64,000 nt of DNA from Halolamina salifodinae (GTDB lineage: Archaea; Halobacteriota; Halobacteria; Halobacteriales; Haloferacaceae), in contig NZ_JAGGLC010000004.1 of NCBI RefSeq assembly GCF_017874235.1, positions 62,001 to 126,000 of the forward strand, read 5' to 3'. Position numbers and translations under genes: made by a program. The notes beneath the pieces are model-generated. The model ran no database searches, was not told the origin of the DNA, and saw only the letters and a program-made list of their open reading frames with translations. This document shows, one piece after another, positions 25,888 to 62,190 of the stretch; the stretch's first letter is position 1; each line of letters starts with the position of its first letter.

Positions 25888-27186
25888 TCAGCGCGGGAGT
25901 TTCTCGAGGTCGCCGTCGTGGCGGATGTACTCGACCGCGATACCCGTGATCGGCGCGTTCGAGGCCGCTGCGGCGTCGCGGGCGGCGTCGAGGTACGACT
26001 CAGCGATGGCGACGACCTCCCCGTAGGCCTCGGAATCACTGTCGGCGAGCAGGTACTCCGCGGTGACGGGGGTGAGCTGGCCCTCGCGCACGTCGGCCGC
26101 GAAGTCGTCGACATCGTCGAGCCAGATCTGGGCGCCGATGATCGAGAGCACGACCGCGCGCTCGAACTCCGGCGAGAGGTCGATGCCGGCCTCGCGGAAC
26201 ATCTCCACCATCCCGTGGTAGATGACGCCGACACGGCCGTACTGGGTGACGAGATACGGCAGATCGAGTTCGGCTTCCTCGAACAGCGCGGGCGGGTCGT
26301 CGAAGGCGGGGTGTTTGTACTCCTCGCGAAGCGCCTCGCGGGCGGCCGCGGCGTCGAGATCGTCGCGGTCGCTCTCGTCGGTTTCGATGGCGGCCTCCTC
26401 GACCGCCTCTGTCTCGGCCGCTGCGACGTCACCAGAACTCGCAGAGTTCTGGTTGGCAGCCGAGAACCATCGGTTCTCGGCGAGGGCGTCGGCCATTAAC
26501 TCTCGGAAATGCGGGTCCCGGTCCTGATGGGCTTCCGATCGGTCGACGGCGGCGTCGTACGCCGCCCGTACTTCGTCGGGGAACGCCGCGAACTGCTCCT
26601 GCACGGCGGCTTGCAGCACTTCTTGGGCGATGCTGGCGACGCGGGCGCGGTCCTCCGGCGCCAACTCGAAGTCGACGCCGAAGTCCTCGTACTCGCCGTC
26701 GTTGATCGCGTCGCGCATGTCGCCGTCGAGCAGGGCGACGACGACCAACTCCGCCACCTCGCGGGCGCGGCGGGTCTCGCGAACCAGTTCTACCGGGTCG
26801 GCCTCGGCGTCGGCGCGGCGCCGACGGAACTTCGAGATGGGGTCGGTCGCGCGCCGGCCCGAGACGGGGTCGATTCCGGGCGGCGCCGCGGCCGTCGCCC
26901 GCCGGTAGACGTGTGCCAACGTGAGTTCGACCGGGAGGGTGAGCTTGGTGTCGTAGGAGAACGCGACCGATTCGCGGCCGAACTCGTCGGCGAGTGCAGC
27001 CTCAACGTCGGCGTAGGCGTCCTCGACGATGCGTTCGATCTCGTCTTCGACGCGCTGTTGGAGACGGATCGCGGCGAGTTCGAGCGATCCGCCCGCCGCG
27101 TAGTGACTGAACACCGCGCGGGCGGGCGTCGGTAGCGCGTCGACGCCCGCGAGGCTGTCTGCGAGCCCACGGAGCGGTCCGGACAT
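25888..27186 (-). CDS. Unrecognised mostly helical protein carrying a palindromic in-frame insert
   Basis: 432 residues from ATG 27186. The sequence is acidic and looks all-helical. The C-terminal half has an Asp-rich motif IIGAQIWLDDVDDFAADVRE followed by GQLTPVTAEYLL, which recalls the second Asp-rich motif of class I isoprenoid synthases, but no clear first motif is seen, so this is only a hint. Residues about 236-254 (ENRWFSAANQNSASSGDV) come from the double-palindrome insert at 26425-26480. It is divergent from the GGGP-synthase-like gene; its ATG and an upstream ATG of that gene overlap as CATG. Confidence 0.7.
   Translation of the reverse strand: MSGPLRGLADSLAGVDALPTPARAVFSHYAAGGSLELAAIRLQQRVEDEIERIVEDAYADVEAALADEFGRESVAFSYDTKLTLPVELTLAHVYRRATAAAPPGIDPVSGRRATDPISKFRRRRADAEADPVELVRETRRAREVAELVVVALLDGDMRDAINDGEYEDFGVDFELAPEDRARVASIAQEVLQAAVQEQFAAFPDEVRAAYDAAVDRSEAHQDRDPHFRELMADALAENRWFSAANQNSASSGDVAAAETEAVEEAAIETDESDRDDLDAAAAREALREEYKHPAFDDPPALFEEAELDLPYLVTQYGRVGVIYHGMVEMFREAGIDLSPEFERAVVLSIIGAQIWLDDVDDFAADVREGQLTPVTAEYLLADSDSEAYGEVVAIAESYLDAARDAAAASNAPITGIAVEYIRHDGDLEKLPR
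26425..26480 (-). repeat. Double-palindrome coding insert, copy A
   Basis: 56 bp. Reading on the minus strand, hairpin 1 has 9-bp arms CCGAGAACC/GGTTCTCGG with loop GAT; after a 7-nt linker, hairpin 2 has arms CCAGAACTC/GAGTTCTGG with loop TGC; the unit ends TGACGTC. It is in frame in the host gene. Related copies lie at 38183-38234 and 53650-53705. Confidence 0.85.
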
Positions 27187-27271
27187 GCGTTTCCGTGGGC
27201 CGACCAGCGGTTTGAAGCTGTCCATCCCCGAACCGACCGGGTTTTTGCCGCCCGCGGGCGAGACGCAGTAT

Positions 27272-28534
27272 ATGCGACGGCATCTCGCGGCGCGGGGCGA
27301 GCGGGTCGCGGACCTCGCTCGGCTGCTCGCCCGGAGTGCGCTCGACACCAACCCGGTGCCCGACTGGGACCACGTCACGAAGGTCGACCCCGAGGCGGCC
27401 AAGAAGCTCCCGCTGCTCTACCCGCTCTGGCTCTCGGAGACCGACGCCGTCTCCGTCGGCGGATCGGCGGACGTGACGCCGGAAAACACCGCGGCGGCCT
27501 TTGACCTGCTCACGCCGCTCTCGACGCCGGTCTGTCACGAACCCAGCGGCGCCGACCACGTCACCAAGCAGAGCCACGAGGCTGCGGACCTGCTGCTCGT
27601 TCCGGAAGTGCTGAACGGCGATAGCGAGGCGCTCGTTGGCACCCTCGGCGCCGCCGTCGAGAGCGTTCGCGAGGACCTCGCGCCCGCCCTGATCGACGAG
27701 AAGGCGCCGTGGCTGCCGGGCAGCGTCGCCGACTGGCTGGCTAACGTCGCCACGTCGGCGCTGCTCGCGGACGCCGCCTTCGAGGCGTACATCGTCCAGA
27801 ACCCCGACAGCGCGGCGGCCCGCGAGGCCGGCGTCGGTTCCGAGGACGTGCTCTCGCCGGGCGAGGCCAAGCGCCGGGCGATGGCCGCGGACCGGCATCT
27901 GGAGTCGGAAATCCTCTATCTCGAGTACTCGGGCACGTTCGGCGACGACGAGGCCGTCGAGGCGCTCTCCCGGATGGACGACGCGCTGGTGCGCTCGCGG
28001 GTCTGGTACGGCGGCGGCCTCTCGAACGGCGAGGACGTGCAGGCGGTACGAGAAGCCGGCGCCGACACCGTCGTCGTCGGCGACGCGTTCCACCGCGTGG
28101 CCGAGCGCGAGGCCGAAATTCTACAAGCCGCTGAGGAGCGCCTCGACGCCGGCGCCGATCCCGAGACGATCCGCGAATGGGTCGACGACCGCGTGGCCCC
28201 GGACGGGCCGGGTGCGCGCTTCCTCTCGACGGTGCCGGGCGTCGACGACCCGCTTGCGCTGGCTTGCGAGTACACCGGCGCGACCGTCCGCGCGTGGCTC
28301 GAACTCCGTGATCGGCGGGAGCGAGCCAGCGAGCGCGACGAAGGGATTCCCGTCATCGACATCCAGCGCACCGCGCTCCGGGCCGCGCTGGCACCGGTCG
28401 TCGACGACCCCGACCGGCTAGCGGCGACGGTCGCCCGCGCGGCGCTCTCCGGGCGTGAGGAGGGAGTGGGCGACGGCTCTCGGGGGAGCGAACAGCTCAG
28501 CCTCTCGCTGTTCGACGGCGGAGCGTCACACTAA
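27272..28534 (+). CDS. Geranylgeranylglyceryl-phosphate-synthase-like protein with C-terminal extension
   Basis: 420 residues from ATG 27272 (an ATG at 27185 would add 29). GGGP synthase makes the first ether bond of archaeal lipids from GGPP and glycerol-1-phosphate. Family motifs in order: WDHVTKVDPE, TDAVSVGGSADVTPENT, LVPEVLNGDSEAL, EAYIVQNPDSAAA, LYLEYSGTFGD, WYGGGLSNGED and TVVVGDAFHR. Ordinary archaeal GGGPS is about 230-250 residues; here the N-terminus is longer and about 125 helical residues follow the barrel. It may be a paralogue with a changed role. It is transcribed away from the unknown gene at 25888-27186. Confidence 0.72.
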   Translation: MRRHLAARGERVADLARLLARSALDTNPVPDWDHVTKVDPEAAKKLPLLYPLWLSETDAVSVGGSADVTPENTAAAFDLLTPLSTPVCHEPSGADHVTKQSHEAADLLLVPEVLNGDSEALVGTLGAAVESVREDLAPALIDEKAPWLPGSVADWLANVATSALLADAAFEAYIVQNPDSAAAREAGVGSEDVLSPGEAKRRAMAADRHLESEILYLEYSGTFGDDEAVEALSRMDDALVRSRVWYGGGLSNGEDVQAVREAGADTVVVGDAFHRVAEREAEILQAAEERLDAGADPETIREWVDDRVAPDGPGARFLSTVPGVDDPLALACEYTGATVRAWLELRDRRERASERDEGIPVIDIQRTALRAALAPVVDDPDRLAATVARAALSGREEGVGDGSRGSEQLSLSLFDGGASH

Positions 28535-31218: not shown

Positions 31219-34164
31219 CTACTCGTCCTGCCGGAGCGTGAGCAGCGCCAACAGGAGCAACAGCACCGCCAGCAGCGAGCCGACGACGGAACTCGGAGTG
31301 CCGAGCGTGGTCCGGCGCTCTGCCACCGTTGCTTCCTCGTCCGCGGTCCGGGTCGGCCGCGGCGTCGCCCGGGCCGTGACGGTCGCCGTCGCGGTGTCGG
31401 TCGGCGTGACCGTCGGCGTCTGCGTCACCTCACCGGTGTCACTGCCCGGCGGGGTAGCGGTCTCCTCGGACGTGTTCGGGGTAGCCGTCGGGGTGGCAGT
31501 GGGTGTTGCGGTCGGCGTCGATGACGGCGACAATGCCGGGACAGAACCGGGGTTCGACGTTGGCGTCGAGGTGGGAGCCGGGGTTGCTGTTGGGGTCGGC
31601 GTTGGGGTTGCTGTCGGGGTTGCTGTCGGGGTCGGCGTCGGGGTTGCTGTCGGGGTTGCTGTCGGGGTCGGCGTCGGGGTTGGCGTCGGGGTTGCTGTCG
31701 GGGTCGGCGTCGGGGTTGGAGTCGGGGTTGCTGCCGGGGTTGGAGTCGGGGTTGGCGTCGGCGTCGTCTTCGTCGACTCTTCGACAGTCACGTTCACCGT
31801 CTCACTCTCCGTGTTGCCCGCCGCGTCGGTGGCGGCGTATTGGATCGCGTACTCGCCGGGGGTGTCGTAGCTCCCACTCCAACTGTCGCCGGTGCTGTCC
31901 GGCGCGCCCTCGGCGGTCCAGCGCTGTGACACCACCCGCGTCACGTTGTCGCTCGCGTCGGCCGAGAGCGTGACCGTCGTCCCGGTTGTGACGGTCATAT
32001 CGTCGCTGACCGTGACGGCCGGGGGCGCAGTGTCGAGCGTGATTTCGTTCGTCGTCGCGGTATCGTCGTTCCCCTGGCCGTCGATAGCCGTCACCGTGAC
32101 CGCGTGGGGACCCTGGCTGCCGTTTCCCACATCGACGGTCGCCGCGTAGTCGGCGTCGTCGCCCGCCGCGAGGTCGACGGTGCCGGCGCCGAACGCCGAG
32201 AGATCCGCCCGGACCGCGTTCACGTCGCCGGAGACGTTCGCGGCCACGCGCAGGCGGTCGGACTCGTTGACCACGGCGTTGCCGTCGGTCGCGTCGGTCA
32301 GCGTGGCGTTAAGCAGCGTTGGCGTCCGGTCGTCCAGCGTCGCGTTGGCCGTGAGGTTCTCGTCGTCGACGCGGCCGTCCGCCGCGGTCGCGCTGTCGAG
32401 GGTGAGCGTCCAGTTCCCGTCGGTGCTCACGTTCAGCGTGGTCTCGTAGCGGTACGGATCGGTTCCGACCTCGTCGAACGCGCTGAAGGAGACCGACTCG
32501 TTGCTCGGGCCGGAGAGCGAGAGGGAGGCGCCCGTCACGTCGTGGGTCGCCGAGAACCCGGCCGAGAGGTTCCCGTCCGCGGTCGTCGACAACGTGAGGT
32601 TGTACGCGTCGAACGGCGGGACGTACGCGTCGTCGGTCAGGTTTTCGTCGTCGACGCGCCCGTCCTCGGCGGTCGCGCTGTCGAGCGTGACGGTGTAGTT
32701 ACCGCCCGTCGCGTTCTCGGCGGTGGCGGTGTAGACGTACGGCGCCGAGGAGTCGTTCGTGGTGAAGTCGCTCCCGTCGAGCGTGACGTCGCCCGACCCA
32801 TTGACGACCATGTCGACGCCGTCTGTCGGGTGGGTCGCGTTGAACTGTACCTGGAGTGCGCCGGGGTCGGCGGTGGCGTTCAGCGCGGTGACGTTGTACG
32901 GCTCTTTCACCGTGGCGTTGTCCGTCTTGTCGCTCGTGGTTTCGTCGCCGTCGACTGAGCGTGCGTGGTCGACGCTCGCGGTGTACTCGCCCGTCTCGTT
33001 GGGCCGGTAGGTCGTGGTGTAGTTCCACGAGCCCCCGGACTCGGTCGCGTTGAACGCCGAGAGCGTGAAGTTTCGCGAGTCGGGCCCGGAGACGGTGACT
33101 GATAGTTCCTCGGCCTGCTCGCTTAGCTGTACCGTGAGGGTGAGGTTCCGTGGGTCGCTCTGGAGGTCGACCGTCTCTACGACGAGCGGCTCGTCGGGGG
33201 GGTTTATCCACGCGACGCCCGCTTCGTCTGTCGTATGGAGGTTTTGGCCGTCTTCGTCCGTCAGTGTGACGAGGTTCCCGCCGCCCATCGTTGCGTACTT
33301 CAGGGTTTTACTGTCGGCGTAGACGAACTCTAAGCCGTCCGTGGTATCGAGTTCGACGCCCGCGACGGGACTCTTGTCTATCCCCCCGCTTGCGATGGTC
33401 TCGGTCGTTCCGTCGGCGTTGACCAGCACCATGTTGCTGCCGTCGGTAATTGGCGTCTCGGCGACGCTGTCGCCGTCGAAGTCACGCGGCGCGCCCACGC
33501 CGAGACCGCCGCTGTTGGAGCCGATATCGCTGGTGTAAAACAGCTGTACGTCGCCCCCGGACTCGTTGTAATAACGTAGCCCCGTCGAGGTACCGACGAA
33601 CACGAGTTCGTCGACGCCGTCGCCAGTCACATCAGCGACACCGAGCGCGGCCGTCGCGTCAGCGCCGTTCGCAACGCCGCCCGTCGTGCCGCTGGCGTTT
33701 ACCCACCGGAGTTTGTTGTTTGAGTCGGCGTAGTACAAGCGCGACGTGCCGTCGCCGTCGAGGTCACCGATGGCCATCTTCGTCGTCGTCGAACTGGCGC
33801 TGTTGCTTAGAACCGTCTTCTCGCCCGTCCGGTCGACCACGCCAAGGGTCCCGTCGCTGGTCACGTACGGCACCTCGACGGCCCCGTCGCCGTCGAACTC
33901 GGCGCCATGCCCGACGATCTTCGCCGAGACGCCCGTGTCGATCTGGCTGCCGTTGGCCGTCGACAGCATGACAGTGCCCGAGTTTTGGCCGACGTAGCCG
34001 AAAGTCACAGTCGCGTTGGCGGGCCTGTCGGCGCCCGATGGCGCTGTGGCTGTTTCGAACCCTGTCTCCCCCGTCTCGCCGACGGCGCCACCCACCGCCC
34101 CCGCGGTGATGACGGCTAGCGCCATGGCTACCGCTACGGACGTTGACAGCTTACCGTGTCCCAT
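31219..34164 (-). CDS. Large surface protein: FG-GAP-like region, Ig-like repeats, Thr-Pro stalk, C-terminal membrane anchor
   Basis: 981 residues. A signal peptide (about 1-29, STSVAVAMALAVITAGAVGG) leads to a region of FG-GAP/VCBS-like repeats (GDLDGDGTSRLYYAD, ADVTGDGVDELVFVG, about 90-310), then Ig-like beta domains (about 330-790), two of which share the stretch TLDSATAxDGRVDDENLT. Next comes a Thr/Pro/Ala stalk of nearly pure TPTPTPTATP (about 800-900) and finally a membrane helix SLLAVLLLLLALLTL with a short charged tail. There are many N-glycosylation sequons. It is probably an adhesin-like or scaffold protein outside the cell. It lacks a PGF-CTERM signal. Confidence 0.8.
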   Translation of the reverse strand: MGHGKLSTSVAVAMALAVITAGAVGGAVGETGETGFETATAPSGADRPANATVTFGYVGQNSGTVMLSTANGSQIDTGVSAKIVGHGAEFDGDGAVEVPYVTSDGTLGVVDRTGEKTVLSNSASSTTTKMAIGDLDGDGTSRLYYADSNNKLRWVNASGTTGGVANGADATAALGVADVTGDGVDELVFVGTSTGLRYYNESGGDVQLFYTSDIGSNSGGLGVGAPRDFDGDSVAETPITDGSNMVLVNADGTTETIASGGIDKSPVAGVELDTTDGLEFVYADSKTLKYATMGGGNLVTLTDEDGQNLHTTDEAGVAWINPPDEPLVVETVDLQSDPRNLTLTVQLSEQAEELSVTVSGPDSRNFTLSAFNATESGGSWNYTTTYRPNETGEYTASVDHARSVDGDETTSDKTDNATVKEPYNVTALNATADPGALQVQFNATHPTDGVDMVVNGSGDVTLDGSDFTTNDSSAPYVYTATAENATGGNYTVTLDSATAEDGRVDDENLTDDAYVPPFDAYNLTLSTTADGNLSAGFSATHDVTGASLSLSGPSNESVSFSAFDEVGTDPYRYETTLNVSTDGNWTLTLDSATAADGRVDDENLTANATLDDRTPTLLNATLTDATDGNAVVNESDRLRVAANVSGDVNAVRADLSAFGAGTVDLAAGDDADYAATVDVGNGSQGPHAVTVTAIDGQGNDDTATTNEITLDTAPPAVTVSDDMTVTTGTTVTLSADASDNVTRVVSQRWTAEGAPDSTGDSWSGSYDTPGEYAIQYAATDAAGNTESETVNVTVEESTKTTPTPTPTPTPAATPTPTPTPTPTATPTPTPTPTPTATPTATPTPTPTATPTATPTPTPTATPAPTSTPTSNPGSVPALSPSSTPTATPTATPTATPNTSEETATPPGSDTGEVTQTPTVTPTDTATATVTARATPRPTRTADEEATVAERRTTLGTPSSVVGSLLAVLLLLLALLTLRQDE
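31570..31770 (-). repeat. Low-complexity repeat encoding the Thr-Pro stalk
   Basis: Tandem near-copies of a short GGGGTTGCTGTC/GGGGTCGGCGTC motif on the plus strand encode alternating ATPT and TPTP units. Third-position changes (ACC/ACA/GCA) keep the protein repeat while breaking DNA identity. Length change by slippage is likely. Confidence 0.75.
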
Positions 34165-36451: not shown

Positions 36452-37735
36452 ATGGCGATAGAGGTCGTGGACAGGACCGTCGTTGCTTCCATTCAGAACC
36501 AGCAACAAGTCCAACCTGACCTCGACGCGCTCGGATTCGCCGCCAGCAAACTCTGGAACGTCGGTCGCTGGACCTGCGACCGCGTTTGGAACGAAACTGG
36601 CCACATCCCCGAAGAAGACGACTTGAAATCCTACCTGAAAGCCCACGAACGCTACGCCGACTTGCACTCGCAATCGAGTCAGCGCGTTCTCGAAGAACTC
36701 GCTGAAGCGTTCGACGGCTGGACCAGCAAACGCCAAAACGGGGACTCGAAAGCGAACCCGCCCGGCTACCGCAAACACAACGACGACCACCCGCGTTCGA
36801 CGGTCACGTTCAAACAGAAAGGCTTCAAAGTCGATACCAAGTTCGGCAGGGTCCGCCTCTCCAAAGGCCGAAACCTGAAAGAACACTACTCCGACTTCAT
36901 CCTCTGCGACATCAAGACACGACCAGACGTGGACTTAGAAGACGTACAAAGCGTCCAACAAGTCCGCGCCGTCTGGAACACGGTGAGGAACGAGTGGAAA
37001 CTCCACCTCGTCTGCAAAATCGAGGTTGAAGTCCCCGAATCGCCCGGCGAGAAAACCGTGGGGATTGACCTCGGCGTGAACAACTTCGCCGCACTCGCCT
37101 ACGAGGACGGCTTCGCGGAGTTGTACCCGTTGGACTGCTTGAAACAGGACGATTACTATTACAGCAAGCATATCGCTCGCTGTGACGACTCATCCTCTGA
37201 ACGGGCCACGCGATTGAACGAGAAGAAAGCCAATCGTCGTACCCATTACTTCCACGCGCTCTCCAAACATATTGTCGAACGATGTGTCGAAGAGGACGTT
37301 GGAACGATTGCCATCGGTGAACTTGGTGGCGTTCGTGAGGATAAGAACGGGAATGTGAAGGATTGGGGCAAGCATGGGAACCTCGACTTGCACTCGTGGG
37401 CGTTTGACCGATTCACGTCACTGCTTGAATACAAGGCTGAAGCCGAGGGCATCACGGTTGAGCGTGTTTCAGAGCGCGATACGTCGAAATCGTGTTCGGG
37501 TTGTGGTCGTTCTCGCAAAGCGAATCGTGTGGAGCGAGGACTGTACGTGTGCGATTCGTGTGAACTGGTGGCTAACGCGGACGTGAATGGAGCGGAGAAC
37601 ATTAGACGGAAAGTACCTCCGAGTCTCGCCTGTGATGGGGGAGATAGGAGTAACGGCTGGTTGGCACAGCCATCGACTTTCGTGTTCGATTCAGAGAGCG
37701 GTTCGTTTGAACCGCGAGAACACGAAGGCTCGTAA
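36452..37735 (+). CDS. tnpB: TnpB, RNA-guided nuclease of the tnpB-only element
   Basis: 427 residues. RuvC residues are Asp in VGIDLGVNNFAALA, Glu in IAIGELGGVRED and Asp in NADVNGAENIRR. The zinc finger has C-x2-C twice (CSGCGRSRKA; VCDSCELV). It is only distantly similar to the TnpB at 468-1703. Codons are less GC-rich than those of neighbouring chromosomal genes. The IS6 insertion ends 39 nt before its ATG and probably removed or replaced its promoter. The sequence just past the right hairpin would supply the omega-RNA guide, which here begins in the 3' end of the udg gene. Confidence 0.93.
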   Translation: MAIEVVDRTVVASIQNQQQVQPDLDALGFAASKLWNVGRWTCDRVWNETGHIPEEDDLKSYLKAHERYADLHSQSSQRVLEELAEAFDGWTSKRQNGDSKANPPGYRKHNDDHPRSTVTFKQKGFKVDTKFGRVRLSKGRNLKEHYSDFILCDIKTRPDVDLEDVQSVQQVRAVWNTVRNEWKLHLVCKIEVEVPESPGEKTVGIDLGVNNFAALAYEDGFAELYPLDCLKQDDYYYSKHIARCDDSSSERATRLNEKKANRRTHYFHALSKHIVERCVEEDVGTIAIGELGGVREDKNGNVKDWGKHGNLDLHSWAFDRFTSLLEYKAEAEGITVERVSERDTSKSCSGCGRSRKANRVERGLYVCDSCELVANADVNGAENIRRKVPPSLACDGGDRSNGWLAQPSTFVFDSESGSFEPREHEGS

Positions 37736-37801
37736 ACCCTAATATCCCAAACCAGCGGCGCGATACCGTGGGATTCCCGCGTGTTCACGCGCGGGAGGAT
37801 G

Positions 37802-38488
37802 TCAACGGCTCTGCCGTCCCTTTGTCTGCCGATAGTCCCGCGAGAAGACGTTCTCTTTCACGTGCTCGACGAACTCGGCTTCCTGGGCGTCGGTCTGCTC
37901 GGCGGGCGGGATCATCGGCACCAACTCGAACCCCCGGCCCCGCACCGTCGTCGCGTGTTCCGCGGCGGCGTCGAAGCTGTCGGGCGCGCGGGTGGTGTAC
38001 TCGACGGCCAACTCCCGCAGCACTCGGTCGCCGATGGGGACGATGATCTCGGGGTTGATCATCCGGAGTTCCGCGTTCAGGAACGGCTCGCAGTTCCGGA
38101 CCTCGTCGTCGCTGGCCGTCCGCTCTGGGTGGCGACAGCGCGAGAGATAGGTCAGGTAGGCGTTCTGAATATCCGGTTCGGAGACGTCACCAGAACTCGG
38201 AGAGTTCTGGTTGCCCGCAGAGCTTCGCTCTGCGACATCGGGCGCCGAGCGCGAGAAGCCGAGTTCGCCGAGAATTCGTTGGATGCGCTCGCCCGCCGCG
38301 TCGCCGGTGAAGGGGACGCCCGTGGCTTCGGCGCCCGCCGAGGGAGCCTCGCCGAGGAAGACGAACTCCCCGCCGGCGTCGCCGTAGCCGTGGACCACGT
38401 GCTCGCGGCAGTCAGCCAGCGCCGGGCAGTTCCGGCAGTCCTCGTCCATGCTGAACGGGTTTGCGAGGGTGTCCTGGTGGGCGTCCAC
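37802..38488 (-). CDS. udg: Family 4-type uracil-DNA glycosylase with palindromic in-frame insert
   Basis: 228 residues. It removes uracil from DNA. The iron-sulphur Cys (DCRNCPALADC and, later, SRCRHPERTASDDEVRNC) and the active-site loop FLGEAPSAGAEATGVPFTGD are present, with PEIIVPIGDRVLRELA further on. Residues about 85-102 (AERSSAGNQNSPSSGDV) come from the double-palindrome unit at 38183-38234, just before the strand AYLTYLSRC. The last codons run into the right end of the tnpB element, whose terminal bases provide the TGA stop. Confidence 0.9.
   Translation of the reverse strand: MDAHQDTLANPFSMDEDCRNCPALADCREHVVHGYGDAGGEFVFLGEAPSAGAEATGVPFTGDAAGERIQRILGELGFSRSAPDVAERSSAGNQNSPSSGDVSEPDIQNAYLTYLSRCRHPERTASDDEVRNCEPFLNAELRMINPEIIVPIGDRVLRELAVEYTTRAPDSFDAAAEHATTVRGRGFELVPMIPPAEQTDAQEAEFVEHVKENVFSRDYRQTKGRQSR
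38183..38234 (-). repeat. Double-palindrome coding insert, copy B
   Basis: 52 bp. Reading on the minus strand, hairpin 1 has 8-bp arms CGCAGAGC/GCTCTGCG with loop GAA; after a 5-nt linker, hairpin 2 has arms CCAGAACTC/GAGTTCTGG with loop TCC; the end is TGACGTC. Arms of hairpin 1 differ from the other copies on both sides, so pairing is preserved. Confidence 0.85.
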
Positions 38489-52536: not shown

Positions 52537-53550
52537 ATGACGACTTCGAGCGCCCCCGGGAAGGTGTACCTGTTCGGGGAGCACGCCGTGGTGTACGGCG
52601 AGCCTGCGGTCCCGTGTGCCATCGAGCGCCGGGCGTGGGTGACCGCCGACCCGCGCGCTGACGACCGCGTGCGCGTCGAGGCCGAAGACCTCACGCTGAA
52701 CGGCTTCACCGTCGAGTGGGGCACCGAGACCGACGACCATCCGGATGTCGACGTGCCCTCGAACCTCGTGGAGGCCGCGACGGGCTACCTCGACGAGGCA
52801 GTTGCGCAGGCCCGCGACGCCATCGGCGACCCCGATGCCGGCTTCGAGATTACCGTCGACAGCGACATCCCCCTCGGCGGGGGGCTGGGCTCCTCGGCCG
52901 CCGTTGTCGTCGCCGCCATCGACGCCGCAGTCCGCTCCCGCGGCGAACAGATCGACCCCGAGGAACTGGCCGACCGCGCGTACCAGGCCGAATCAGCCGT
53001 ACAGGGCGGCGAAGCCTCCCGCGCGGACACGTACTGCTCGGCGATGGGCGGCGCCGTCCGCGTCGAGGGCGACAATACCCGACCCATCGAGGCGCCCGAA
53101 CTCCCCCTGGTCATCGGCTACGACGGCGGGGCGGGTGACACAGGAAAACTGGTCGCTGGCGTGCGCGCGCTCAAGGAGGAGTACGAGTTCGCCGCCGACA
53201 CCGTCGAGACCATCGGCGACCTCACCCGAAGAGGCGAGGAACTGTTGGCCGCGGCCGACCCCGACGAGGATCCGAGCCCCGTGCTGCTCGACGAACTCGG
53301 CGACCTGATGGACTTCAACCACGGACTGCTGTCGGCGCTGGGCGTCTCCTCACGCTCACTCGACCGGATGGTCTGGAGCGCACGTGAGGCCGACGCGTTG
53401 GGGGCGAAACTCACCGGCGCGGGTGGTGGCGGCTGTATCGTCGCCCTCGACGAGGGGCAGGCCACCCGGCGCGCGCTGGAGTACTCGCCGGGCTGTGAGC
53501 AGAGCTTCCGGGCCGAACTCGCGACCGAGGGGGTGCGAGCGGAGCGATGA
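52537..53550 (+). CDS. mvk: Mevalonate kinase
   Basis: 337 residues of the GHMP-kinase family. It phosphorylates mevalonate on the way to archaeal lipid isoprenoids. Motif 1 is SAPGKVYLFGEHAVVYGEPA, motif 2 PLGGGLGSSAAVVVAAIDAA and motif 3 KLTGAGGGGCIVALDE. It overlaps the isopentenyl phosphate kinase gene by 4 bp, giving two enzymes of the archaeal mevalonate route in one unit. Confidence 0.97.
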   Translation: MTTSSAPGKVYLFGEHAVVYGEPAVPCAIERRAWVTADPRADDRVRVEAEDLTLNGFTVEWGTETDDHPDVDVPSNLVEAATGYLDEAVAQARDAIGDPDAGFEITVDSDIPLGGGLGSSAAVVVAAIDAAVRSRGEQIDPEELADRAYQAESAVQGGEASRADTYCSAMGGAVRVEGDNTRPIEAPELPLVIGYDGGAGDTGKLVAGVRALKEEYEFAADTVETIGDLTRRGEELLAAADPDEDPSPVLLDELGDLMDFNHGLLSALGVSSRSLDRMVWSAREADALGAKLTGAGGGGCIVALDEGQATRRALEYSPGCEQSFRAELATEGVRAER

Positions 53551-54365
53551 GCCCGACGATTCTCAAACTCGGCGGCTCAGTCATCACCGAGAAGGACCGC
53601 GCGGAGACTCTGGACGGCGAAGCGCTCGACGCCGCCGCCGACGCCATCGCCGAGAACTTTCAGTTCTCGGCTGGCAACCAGAACGCTCCGCGTTCTGGTG
53701 ACATCGCCGACGCGCTGAAGCGCGGCGACGTCTCGGGGCTGGTCGTGGTCCACGGCGGCGGGAGCTTCGGCCACCACCACGCAAGCGAGGCGGGCGTGAC
53801 GACGACCGACGGCAGCGCCGACGCCGGGGACGCCATCGCGATCCACGGCGCGATGAAGACGCTCAATCAGTTCGTGCTCTCGCGCCTCCACGACCGCGGC
53901 GTGCCGGCGCTCCCGGTCCACCCGCTTTCGGCGGGATCCCGGGACGCTGACGGGGGCCTCGACCTGCCGATGAACCAGACGGCGACGATGCTGAACGAGG
54001 GTTTCGTCCCGGTGCTCCACGGCGACGTGATCGCCACCGAGGGCGAGGGCGTGACGGTGCTCTCGGGCGACGAGATCGTCACGACCGCCGCGGAGCACCT
54101 CTCCGCGGATCGCGTCGGCCTCTGTTCGACGGTGCCGGGCGTGCTCGACACCGAGGACGAAGTGATCCCGGAGATCACGGCGTTCGATGACGCTGCGGAC
54201 GCGCTCGGCGGCAGTGATGCCGACGCCGACGTGACTGGCGGGATGGCGGCGAAGGTGCGTGAACTACTGGACCTCGGCGCGCCGGCGTCGGTGTTCGGCC
54301 CCGACGACATCGGGGCGTTTCTGGCCGGTGAGAACCCGGGGACGACGATTCGGAGCGACGACTGA
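53547..54365 (+). CDS. ipk: Isopentenyl phosphate kinase with palindromic in-frame insert
   Basis: 272 residues of the amino-acid-kinase fold. It converts isopentenyl phosphate to IPP, the last step of the alternative mevalonate route. Motifs: ILKLGGSVITEKD, LVVVHGGGSFGHHHASEAGV with the catalytic His, and VTGGMAAKVRELLDLG. Residues about 35-53 (AENFQFSAGNQNAPRSGDI) derive from the double palindrome at 53650-53705 and sit in the loop between the first helix and the strand before HGGGSFGH. The core remains intact, so activity is likely kept. Confidence 0.93.
   Translation: MSPTILKLGGSVITEKDRAETLDGEALDAAADAIAENFQFSAGNQNAPRSGDIADALKRGDVSGLVVVHGGGSFGHHHASEAGVTTTDGSADAGDAIAIHGAMKTLNQFVLSRLHDRGVPALPVHPLSAGSRDADGGLDLPMNQTATMLNEGFVPVLHGDVIATEGEGVTVLSGDEIVTTAAEHLSADRVGLCSTVPGVLDTEDEVIPEITAFDDAADALGGSDADADVTGGMAAKVRELLDLGAPASVFGPDDIGAFLAGENPGTTIRSDD
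53650..53705 (+). repeat. Double-palindrome coding insert, copy C
   Basis: 56 bp. Hairpin 1 has 9-bp arms CCGAGAACT/AGTTCTCGG with loop TTC; after a 7-nt linker, hairpin 2 has arms CCAGAACGC/GCGTTCTGG with loop TCC; the end is TGACATC. It is in frame and in the same orientation relative to the gene as copies A and B. Confidence 0.85.
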
Positions 54366-61995: not shown

Positions 61996-62004
61996 GACCG
62001 TCAA

Positions 62005-62190
62005 CCGCCGAGCGAGAACGGATCGGCGGCACCGGCCAGCCGCCGAGCGAGAACGGTTCGGCGGTGATTGTCAACCGCCGAGCGAGAACGGATCGGCGGC
62101 ACCGGCCAGCCGCCGAGCGAGAACGGATCGGCGGCACCGGCCAGCCGCCGAGCGAGAACGGATCGGCGGTGATCGTCAACCGCCGAGCGG
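62005..62190. repeat. Array of palindromes with a 35-bp period
   Basis: Five complete 25-bp units and one partial start at 62005, 62040, 62075, 62110, 62145 and 62180. Each unit has arms CCGCCGA/TCGGCGG around GCGAGAACGGA; unit 2 has one base change. Ten-base linkers are of two kinds: CACCGGCCAG (after units 1, 3 and 4) and TGAT(T/C)GTCAA (after units 2 and 5). The array fills the gap between a membrane-protein gene and rqcH. Confidence 0.9.

Follow-up and report, generated by a model that had tools for sequence, protein, structure and literature searches.

Rickettsia palindromic elements (RPEs) reportedly sit within numerous unrelated protein genes, where they keep the frame, as well as in intergenic regions. 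REPs of the GTAG type and REPINs are short hairpins which form dimers and mosaic arrays, are presumably handled as single-stranded DNA (ssDNA) and have RAYT as their transposase. Triloops of the GNA type give DNA hairpins an unusual stability. The length of RPEs is given as 105-146 bp in the passages of PMC2229807 used here. Passages of this paper and of PMC2996958 refer to the Methanocaldococcus jannaschii coding palindromes of Suyama 2005 as archaeal palindromes fused into protein genes. CGTC-tagged REPs (Di Nocera 2013, PMC3733652) are defined, in the sections of that paper drawn on here, by a stem of 8-9 bp with A-T pairs at the first and second position, a loop of 4-5 nt, a terminal CGTC-like tag (also TGTC or CCTC) and a CCA-like tail. 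According to the same sections, these small hairpins form dimers mainly head to head, include intragenic copies and occur in five bacterial phyla, with no dedicated transposase known. Inverted repeats of up to 284 bp which lie in coding genes and stay perfect are described for nematomorph mitochondria in parts of PMC6649704. As far as the cited excerpts go, the kind of element is already known from RPEs, Wolbachia repeats, intragenic REPs and the M. jannaschii coding palindromes. A literature search for palindromic elements, REPs or in-frame palindromes of haloarchaea, with most subscription papers outside its range, found no description.

Here, we present a family of double-hairpin units in Halolamina salifodinae (assembly of 2.75 Mb, 91.8% complete), three copies of which lie in the window, i.e. 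the whole stretch of 64 kb analysed (contig C4, positions 62001-126000). New are the haloarchaeal family itself, its dimer of the CGTC-like kind, joined tail to tail and looped by GNA, a rule of orientation and a catalogue of empty sites. With a probability of about 0.6, we take the units to be inserted copies, in frame, of a dispersed REP/RPE-like mobile element, which would be non-autonomous, would spread as folded ssDNA and would be tolerated by genes only in the orientation that encodes a stop-free, polar and acidic loop.

Each of the three units in the window consists of two perfect hairpins, B followed by A in coding direction, with 4-5 nt between them and loops of 3 nt throughout (Table 1). 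By direct inspection, the units are present where a sequence-only reading of this DNA had put them and have the arms given there. Its description of two adjacent hairpins with 3-nt loops is borne out by the exact limits of hairpins A and B, and the common orientation, frame and N-Q-N-x-x-x-S-G-D peptide which it had noted hold true for all three host genes. A search of the window for the core pattern with up to three mismatches gave six matches, as compared to 0.03 expected from shuffles, the six being the three palindromic units counted on both strands. The double-hairpin fold is formed on either DNA strand with z between -5.7 and -8.6. Homologues of the unit 3 host bear the name isopentenyl phosphate kinase (IPK), and its best Foldseek match is 3k4o. 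The uracil-DNA glycosylase (UDG) has 228 aa here versus 211 aa in most listed homologues, several of which are called uracil-DNA glycosylase family 4. The gene of the helical protein probably starts some 47 codons further inward, to judge from the point at which the main matches to orthologues set in. In unit 3, the CATC of the right-hand head recurs in GCCATC immediately left of hairpin B, which is possibly a short target duplication.

Table 1. The three double-hairpin units and their host genes, in positions of the window.
Feature	Position	Strand	Details
IPK gene, host of unit 3	53547..54365	+	272 aa; Pfam AA_kinase, 2.4e-29
Unit 3, hairpin B	53649..53671	+	stem 10, loop TTC
Unit 3, connector TGGCA (tail junction)	53672..53676	+	
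Unit 3, hairpin A	53677..53699	+	stem 10, loop TCC
Unit 3, right-hand head GACATC	53700..53705	+	
UDG gene, host of unit 2	37802..38488	-	Pfam UDG, 2.1e-18; start codon uncertain
Unit 2, hairpin B	38216..38234	-	stem 8, CGCAGAGC type
Unit 2, hairpin A	38189..38211	-	stem 10
Unit 2, right head GACGTC	38183..38188	-	GATGTC left of hairpin B
Helical-protein gene, host of unit 1	25888..27402	-	no Pfam match
Unit 1, hairpin B	26459..26481	-	stem 10, CGAGAACC type
Unit 1, hairpin A	26431..26453	-	stem 10
Unit 1, right head GACGTC	26425..26430	-	

The core of hairpin A, with up to two mismatches, was found at 66 places of the genome (24 + 42; control 0); a lack of further copies, which would have spoken against the earlier reading, was thus not observed. 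In its exact form, AACCAGAA-N9-TTCTGGTGAC, it occurs in 37 of the 118 genomes searched, H. salifodinae included (reversed control 0), and in all seven Halolamina genomes, with 43 copies in H. salifodinae and 2-20 in each of the others. A scan of the genomes of named species gave at least 86 stretches with the core, and the 80 listed belong to Halobacteria by title, apart from one Euryarchaeota MAG. Among viral contigs there was no exact core match, and carriage of the units by viruses was dropped on this ground. Copies were read in 463 kb of H. salifodinae sequence, comprising contig C4 as a whole and elsewhere the surroundings of matches; 93 places resembling hairpin A yielded 84 copies after removal of nine that were hairpin B or look-alikes.

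Between genes, monomers are chained into arrays with alternating TGCCA/TGGCA and GACGTC/AACGTC junctions. Because the same hairpins form these long intergenic arrays, the family is REP/BIME-like rather than purely genic. Intergenic mosaics of many hairpin modules were seen in the same genome at C1:543950-544800, C6:146800-147500 and C1:660000-660800 (L007, L224 and L211). Their outer ends carry inverted GCGGTCACAA-like sequences, and they possibly represent larger mobile arrays.

Copies inside genes were defined by a strict coding test, in which both 300-nt flanks had to be coding and the frame had to be open, without a stop, for 60 nt or more to either side of the unit. This test places 22 of the 84 copies in 19 genes, all on one strand and in one frame, with none in the other five frames. 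Seven copies in six genes were added by hand, with the unit near the gene end or a flank of poor coding score (hosts: IPK, one Usp, DUF5807, an antiporter subunit, C1:134464/134491 and C1:472756), which gives 29 copies in 25 genes, all sense; the sense copies C2:120914 and C5:242233, with short open frames, were left out. Two copies positive in another frame, C6:44816 (score 27) and C5:259422 (score 13), were not counted, as one flank is negative and the frame closes on one side within 6 and 54 nt, respectively. Many non-genic copies are crossed by long open frames in several frames with poor codon scores and were taken as non-coding. The host ORFs submitted match Pfam in 21 of 23 cases. They include anthranilate synthase, shikimate dehydrogenase, M32 carboxypeptidase, DsbA, FtsJ methyltransferase, FAA hydrolase, a phosphomannomutase-type enzyme, DHDPS (DapA), aldo/keto reductase, class-V aminotransferase, GNAT and S9 peptidase as well as two Usp, DUF5807, NIF3, CMD, DUF58 and the antiporter subunit. 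The strict test is likewise passed by 6 of the 40 units from four further Halolamina genomes, all sense and in the same frame; two high scorers were excluded, as the frame closes 39 nt (L417, sense) or 3 nt (L402, other frame) from the unit. The listed records of named species hold 84 units, 75 of them classifiable and four genic, all in the same frame, and one of these four is the H. pelagica FtsJ copy that is also contained in the 6 of 40.

Palindromes in frame in unrelated protein genes, with further copies elsewhere, are what the haloarchaeal units have in common with RPEs, and the RPE-like spread into coding genes that had been suggested from the sequence is supported by the 25 unrelated hosts. 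In contrast to RPEs, which are taken here from their description, the units measure only 45-51 nt plus a duplication, live in Archaea instead of bacterial Rickettsia, and have one orientation and frame in all open genes counted. The suggested archaeal counterpart of RPEs thus stands with regard to its likeness, but it is not the first archaeal case, as the M. jannaschii palindromes were cited earlier; these, too, are palindromic repeats within archaeal protein genes, as described by the citing papers in the parts used. The palindromes of nematomorph mitochondria are likewise perfect in coding genes, but much longer, mitochondrial and not a dispersed unit.

Relatives were queried at 22 genic sites, with up to eight relatives shown per site; the genes for FtsJ and the aminotransferase and the C1:134464 gene were outside this query. 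At all 21 sites with relatives, at least one relative has an empty orthologous site, the 22nd being outside the relative search. For the three host genes of the window, the segment is missing from the orthologues in the six other Halolamina genomes compared. Compared with orthologues of the same genus, the net insert amounts to 57 nt in IPK and the helical protein and to 51 nt in UDG; it is 57 nt in one Usp and 114 nt in DUF58, which carries two tandem units. Together with the dispersed copies and the empty sites, these lengths substantiate the initial impression of a mobile-looking unit inserted in frame. The DapA unit is also present in genome G003, with the loop TTC here and GAA there, and absent in G001 and G005. 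FtsJ contains two units here versus one in H. pelagica, a difference of 57 nt, and the single H. pelagica unit equals the outer two hairpins of the pair. Inserts common to two species, as in DapA and FtsJ, would also be expected of ancestral loops that were lost in relatives, but with related sequence in 25 unrelated proteins and the site empty in relatives throughout the query, we consider such an origin extremely improbable.

At the IPK site, a homologue of 93% identity lacks the insert and one of 83% identity has a different version of it at the same place; the peptide motif occurs there in one of the 120 listed homologues. The motif is equally found in one of 120 listed homologues at the UDG site, where the alignment adds a second (2 of 12 aligned), and this site has a decayed copy in a sequence of 97% identity and a longer, array-like segment in one of 66% identity. 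In the UDG homologues P0144, P0158, P0169 and P0171, a variable loop with inserts of other kinds occupies this site, and the insert of P0158 looks like a series of units.

That the genic copies have one frame is in large part a consequence of the target, because 1360 of the 1713 GACGNC sites in genes are aligned with the codon phase; CG dinucleotides in genes lie over a codon boundary in 60%. A target of GACGNC type therefore explains most of the frame rule, and identity of frame as evidence of selection was rejected to this extent. Orientation is not so explained. It is sense in 19 of 19 genes by the strict test (two-sided binomial, 4e-6) and in 25 of 25 with those added by hand (6e-8). The exception, C1:526799-526856, is a double unit which lies antisense and in frame within the gene of a small membrane protein; this gene seems to be broken by an in-frame stop upstream of the unit, which was counted among the non-genic copies. 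A near-identical double unit lies 1 kb away, in sense direction in FtsJ (C1:527768-527825).

The two strands encode very different peptides. In the sense frame, the 21 genic units with a 51-nt body have no stops, a hydropathy of -1.43 and a net charge of -1.4, as compared to stops in 7 of 21, a hydropathy of +0.33 and a charge of +3.2 in the antisense in-phase frame; a second antisense frame of the same units is as polar as the sense frame (-1.41) but basic (+3.5), with stops in 1 of 21. Our reading is that selection against stop-prone, hydrophobic and basic antisense peptides best explains the sense bias, the alternative being a strand-biased insertion mechanism. The AlphaFold model of IPK (mean pLDDT 85) keeps the IPK fold, with the M. 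jannaschii IPK as the nearest solved fold, and the insert, at 60-64, is a loop between two helix halves. In the UDG model (mean pLDDT 74), residues 88-101 are below 50. From these models, the host proteins would likely tolerate the unit as an extra floppy loop.

The CGAATC type of hairpin B is present in 12 genic copies and in none outside genes among the 84 (Fisher 5e-7), which is suggestive of a subtype confined to genes within this set; outside Halolamina, some units of this type fail the genic test. Conversely, a GACCGG right flank is common to 15 non-genic copies and absent from genic ones. In contig C4, 27% of the sequence is outside called ORFs of at least 600 nt. The gene-bound subtype, the sense-only, polar and acidic peptide and the occupation of the UDG and IPK sites in some homologues would agree with a peptide that is beneficial and selected, for instance as a halophilic surface loop. 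As the motif is so rare among listed homologues at both sites, stems and loops are variable and the inserts are modelled with low confidence, we hold a selected peptide to be improbable.

Hairpin B, in the form 10-3-10 and at a fixed place, accompanies 53 of the 84 copies versus 47 of 20000 random positions. A looser finder returns it for 82 of 84, but with a false rate of 22% (4347/20000) and a preference for 3-nt loops, so that only the strict count serves as evidence. Over 52 distinct units (of the 53), 98% of cells are paired compared with 80.5% in shuffles, a percentage that is partly circular since copies were chosen partly by pairing. In these 52 units, 185 cells are altered on both sides of the stem (shuffle maximum 73), so the earlier statement that pairing is conserved rather than sequence is upheld by double changes which leave stems paired. 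Two of four covariation measures did not rise above shuffles, namely the pairs with a double change (13; maximum 13) and further pair types (24; mean 25.5). Where C-G closes the loop, 53 of 81 hairpins A and 49 of 70 hairpins B have GNA or its complement TNC, versus 3765 of 37306 (10.1%) of all cNNNg stretches of contig C4 and 38 of 294 of the other short hairpins on this contig; p-values for loops and covariation are inflated by related copies.

Double changes that keep pairing might equally point to functional RNA elements of the host mRNAs, which control stability or translation and have spread through their usefulness, as might the folding found on both strands. On the other hand, the hosts are unrelated and the positions within them arbitrary, orthologues manage without the unit, the same hairpins occur in intergenic arrays, and Rfam has no family match at the units. 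Nothing in the data favours an RNA element over a DNA element, and we judge this explanation very improbable.

On the strand with the CGTC-like head at the 5'-end, GNA outnumbers TNC by 38 to 14 in hairpin B and by 34 to 22 in hairpin A. Both hairpins therefore look like one kind of monomer, composed of head, stem, GNA, stem and tail. The genic unit is formed by two such monomers tail to tail via TGCCA/TGGCA, with the CGTC-like heads facing outward. This anatomy resembles CGTC-tagged REPs in several respects. Left heads read GACGTT, GACGTC, GATGTC, GCCCTC and others and right heads GACGTC or GACGCC, in a tag that is loose enough to include CGTT, CGGT and CATC; the tails TGCCA, AGCCA and CGCCA contain CCA, with TGGCA, GGGCA or AGGCA instead in part of the copies. 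Dimers and intragenic copies are further common traits, as is a dedicated transposase not found, here by a Y1 search. Unlike in these REPs, stems are mostly 10 bp long, and the foot pairs are G-C followed by A-T or C-G in hairpin B and A-T followed by C-G in hairpin A. The loop of hairpin B has 3 nt in 75 of 82 copies, as returned by the finder that favours 3 nt and has the false rate of 22%; hairpin A was collected at 3-nt-loop geometry only, and its loop length is thus no test. Dimers of genic units are tail to tail instead of head to head, arrays chain both junctions alternately, and the host is archaeal. With GTAG REPs and REPINs, the units share short hairpins, dimers and mosaic arrays, but the tag is CGTC-like here and a RAYT was not found.

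A search for Y1 transposases detected no mobilising enzyme in the H. salifodinae assembly, whose sole Y1 match belongs, together with a TnpB-like gene, to an IS. Two of the seven Halolamina genomes (G001 and G002) have units and no Y1 match. As stated in the portion of PMC6006769 used, Archaea have only the IS200 subclass of Y1 transposases. A Y1 subgroup that is separated from units by about 230 bp in G052 and G059 was considered as a RAYT-like mobiliser and rejected as a REPtron, because the unit is inside the left IS end and the IS occurs without the unit in L296. In L291-L294 (G059 and G052), the left end that contains the unit belongs to an IS which encodes TnpA and OrfB, unit and IS being together in three G059 contigs, and from this arrangement the units near these Y1 genes are read as passengers of an IS end. 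REP-associated Y1 genes flanked by hairpins, the mark of RAYT-mobilised REPs, were not seen. With regard to MITEs, which have terminal inverted repeats of one element and a target duplication, the two unit ends are different hairpins, and the duplication of 2-6 nt is ambiguous. Insert boundaries are ragged and rich in microhomology, and a clean target-site duplication, sought at the genic sites against relatives, was not obtained.

Such boundaries would suit a process without any transposase, in which template switching during replication or repair copies hairpin modules to new sites at GAC/CGTC microhomologies. The near-identical double unit 1 kb from that of FtsJ, the FtsJ module number differing by a whole unit, the loop flipped between species in DapA and the outcome of the Y1 search point in the same direction. 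Against it, a mostly constant body of 51 nt with conserved ends in unrelated, distant genes looks like a defined element, and the units are spread across Halobacteria; we rate template switching as unlikely, though well ahead of a useful RNA or peptide. Under the preferred mobile element, a trans-acting enzyme would recognise the hairpins and insert the dimer at CG, mostly within GAC-GNC. The frame would be kept because this motif is in codon phase and the unit plus the short duplication is a multiple of three, and antisense and other-frame insertions would be purged. Later, copying within a hairpin at replication may keep stems perfect and flip loops. A more specific version is doubtful but worth stating: a coding-adapted selfish DNA of haloarchaea, in which a CGTC-REP-like ssDNA dimer with GNA loops is moved by a putative archaeal enzyme, the GAC-GNC target keeps phase, the sense strand has come to encode a linker peptide that is acidic, free of stops and compatible with salt, and the CGAATC sublineage is now gene-dwelling.

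If the units are mobile, they provide a dense and datable record of how selfish DNA makes its way into core enzymes, with 25 genes in one small archaeal genome and empty sites in relatives for 21 of them, in a genus with named species. The case makes testable how short palindromes move without a known transposase, as in CGTC REPs and RPEs, and whether proteins regularly gain new loops through the insertion of hairpins. Caution is also called for in haloarchaeal protein alignments and structure work, where foreign segments of 17-19 residues are to be met.

Some other repeats were observed besides the family. By eye, 12 of 14 haloarchaeal tnpA-type genes shown contain two paired hairpins with short loops, in frame and close to the N-terminus (L290-L292, L294-L300, L302 and L305; not seen in L301 and L304), with differing stem sequences at an about constant place. 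The window itself contains an IS200/605-type element with Y1 and TnpB-like genes at 396-2089 and, 35 kb from it, an inverted copy of the terminal repeat of this element at 37611-37805, beside an Rfam sot0042 match. A repeat array with 12-nt spacing lies inside a long open frame at 31476-31800, and five palindromic repeats with 35-nt spacing (CCGCCGAGCGAGAACGGNTCGGCGG), apparently intergenic and unlike the unit in sequence, are located at 62002-62189.
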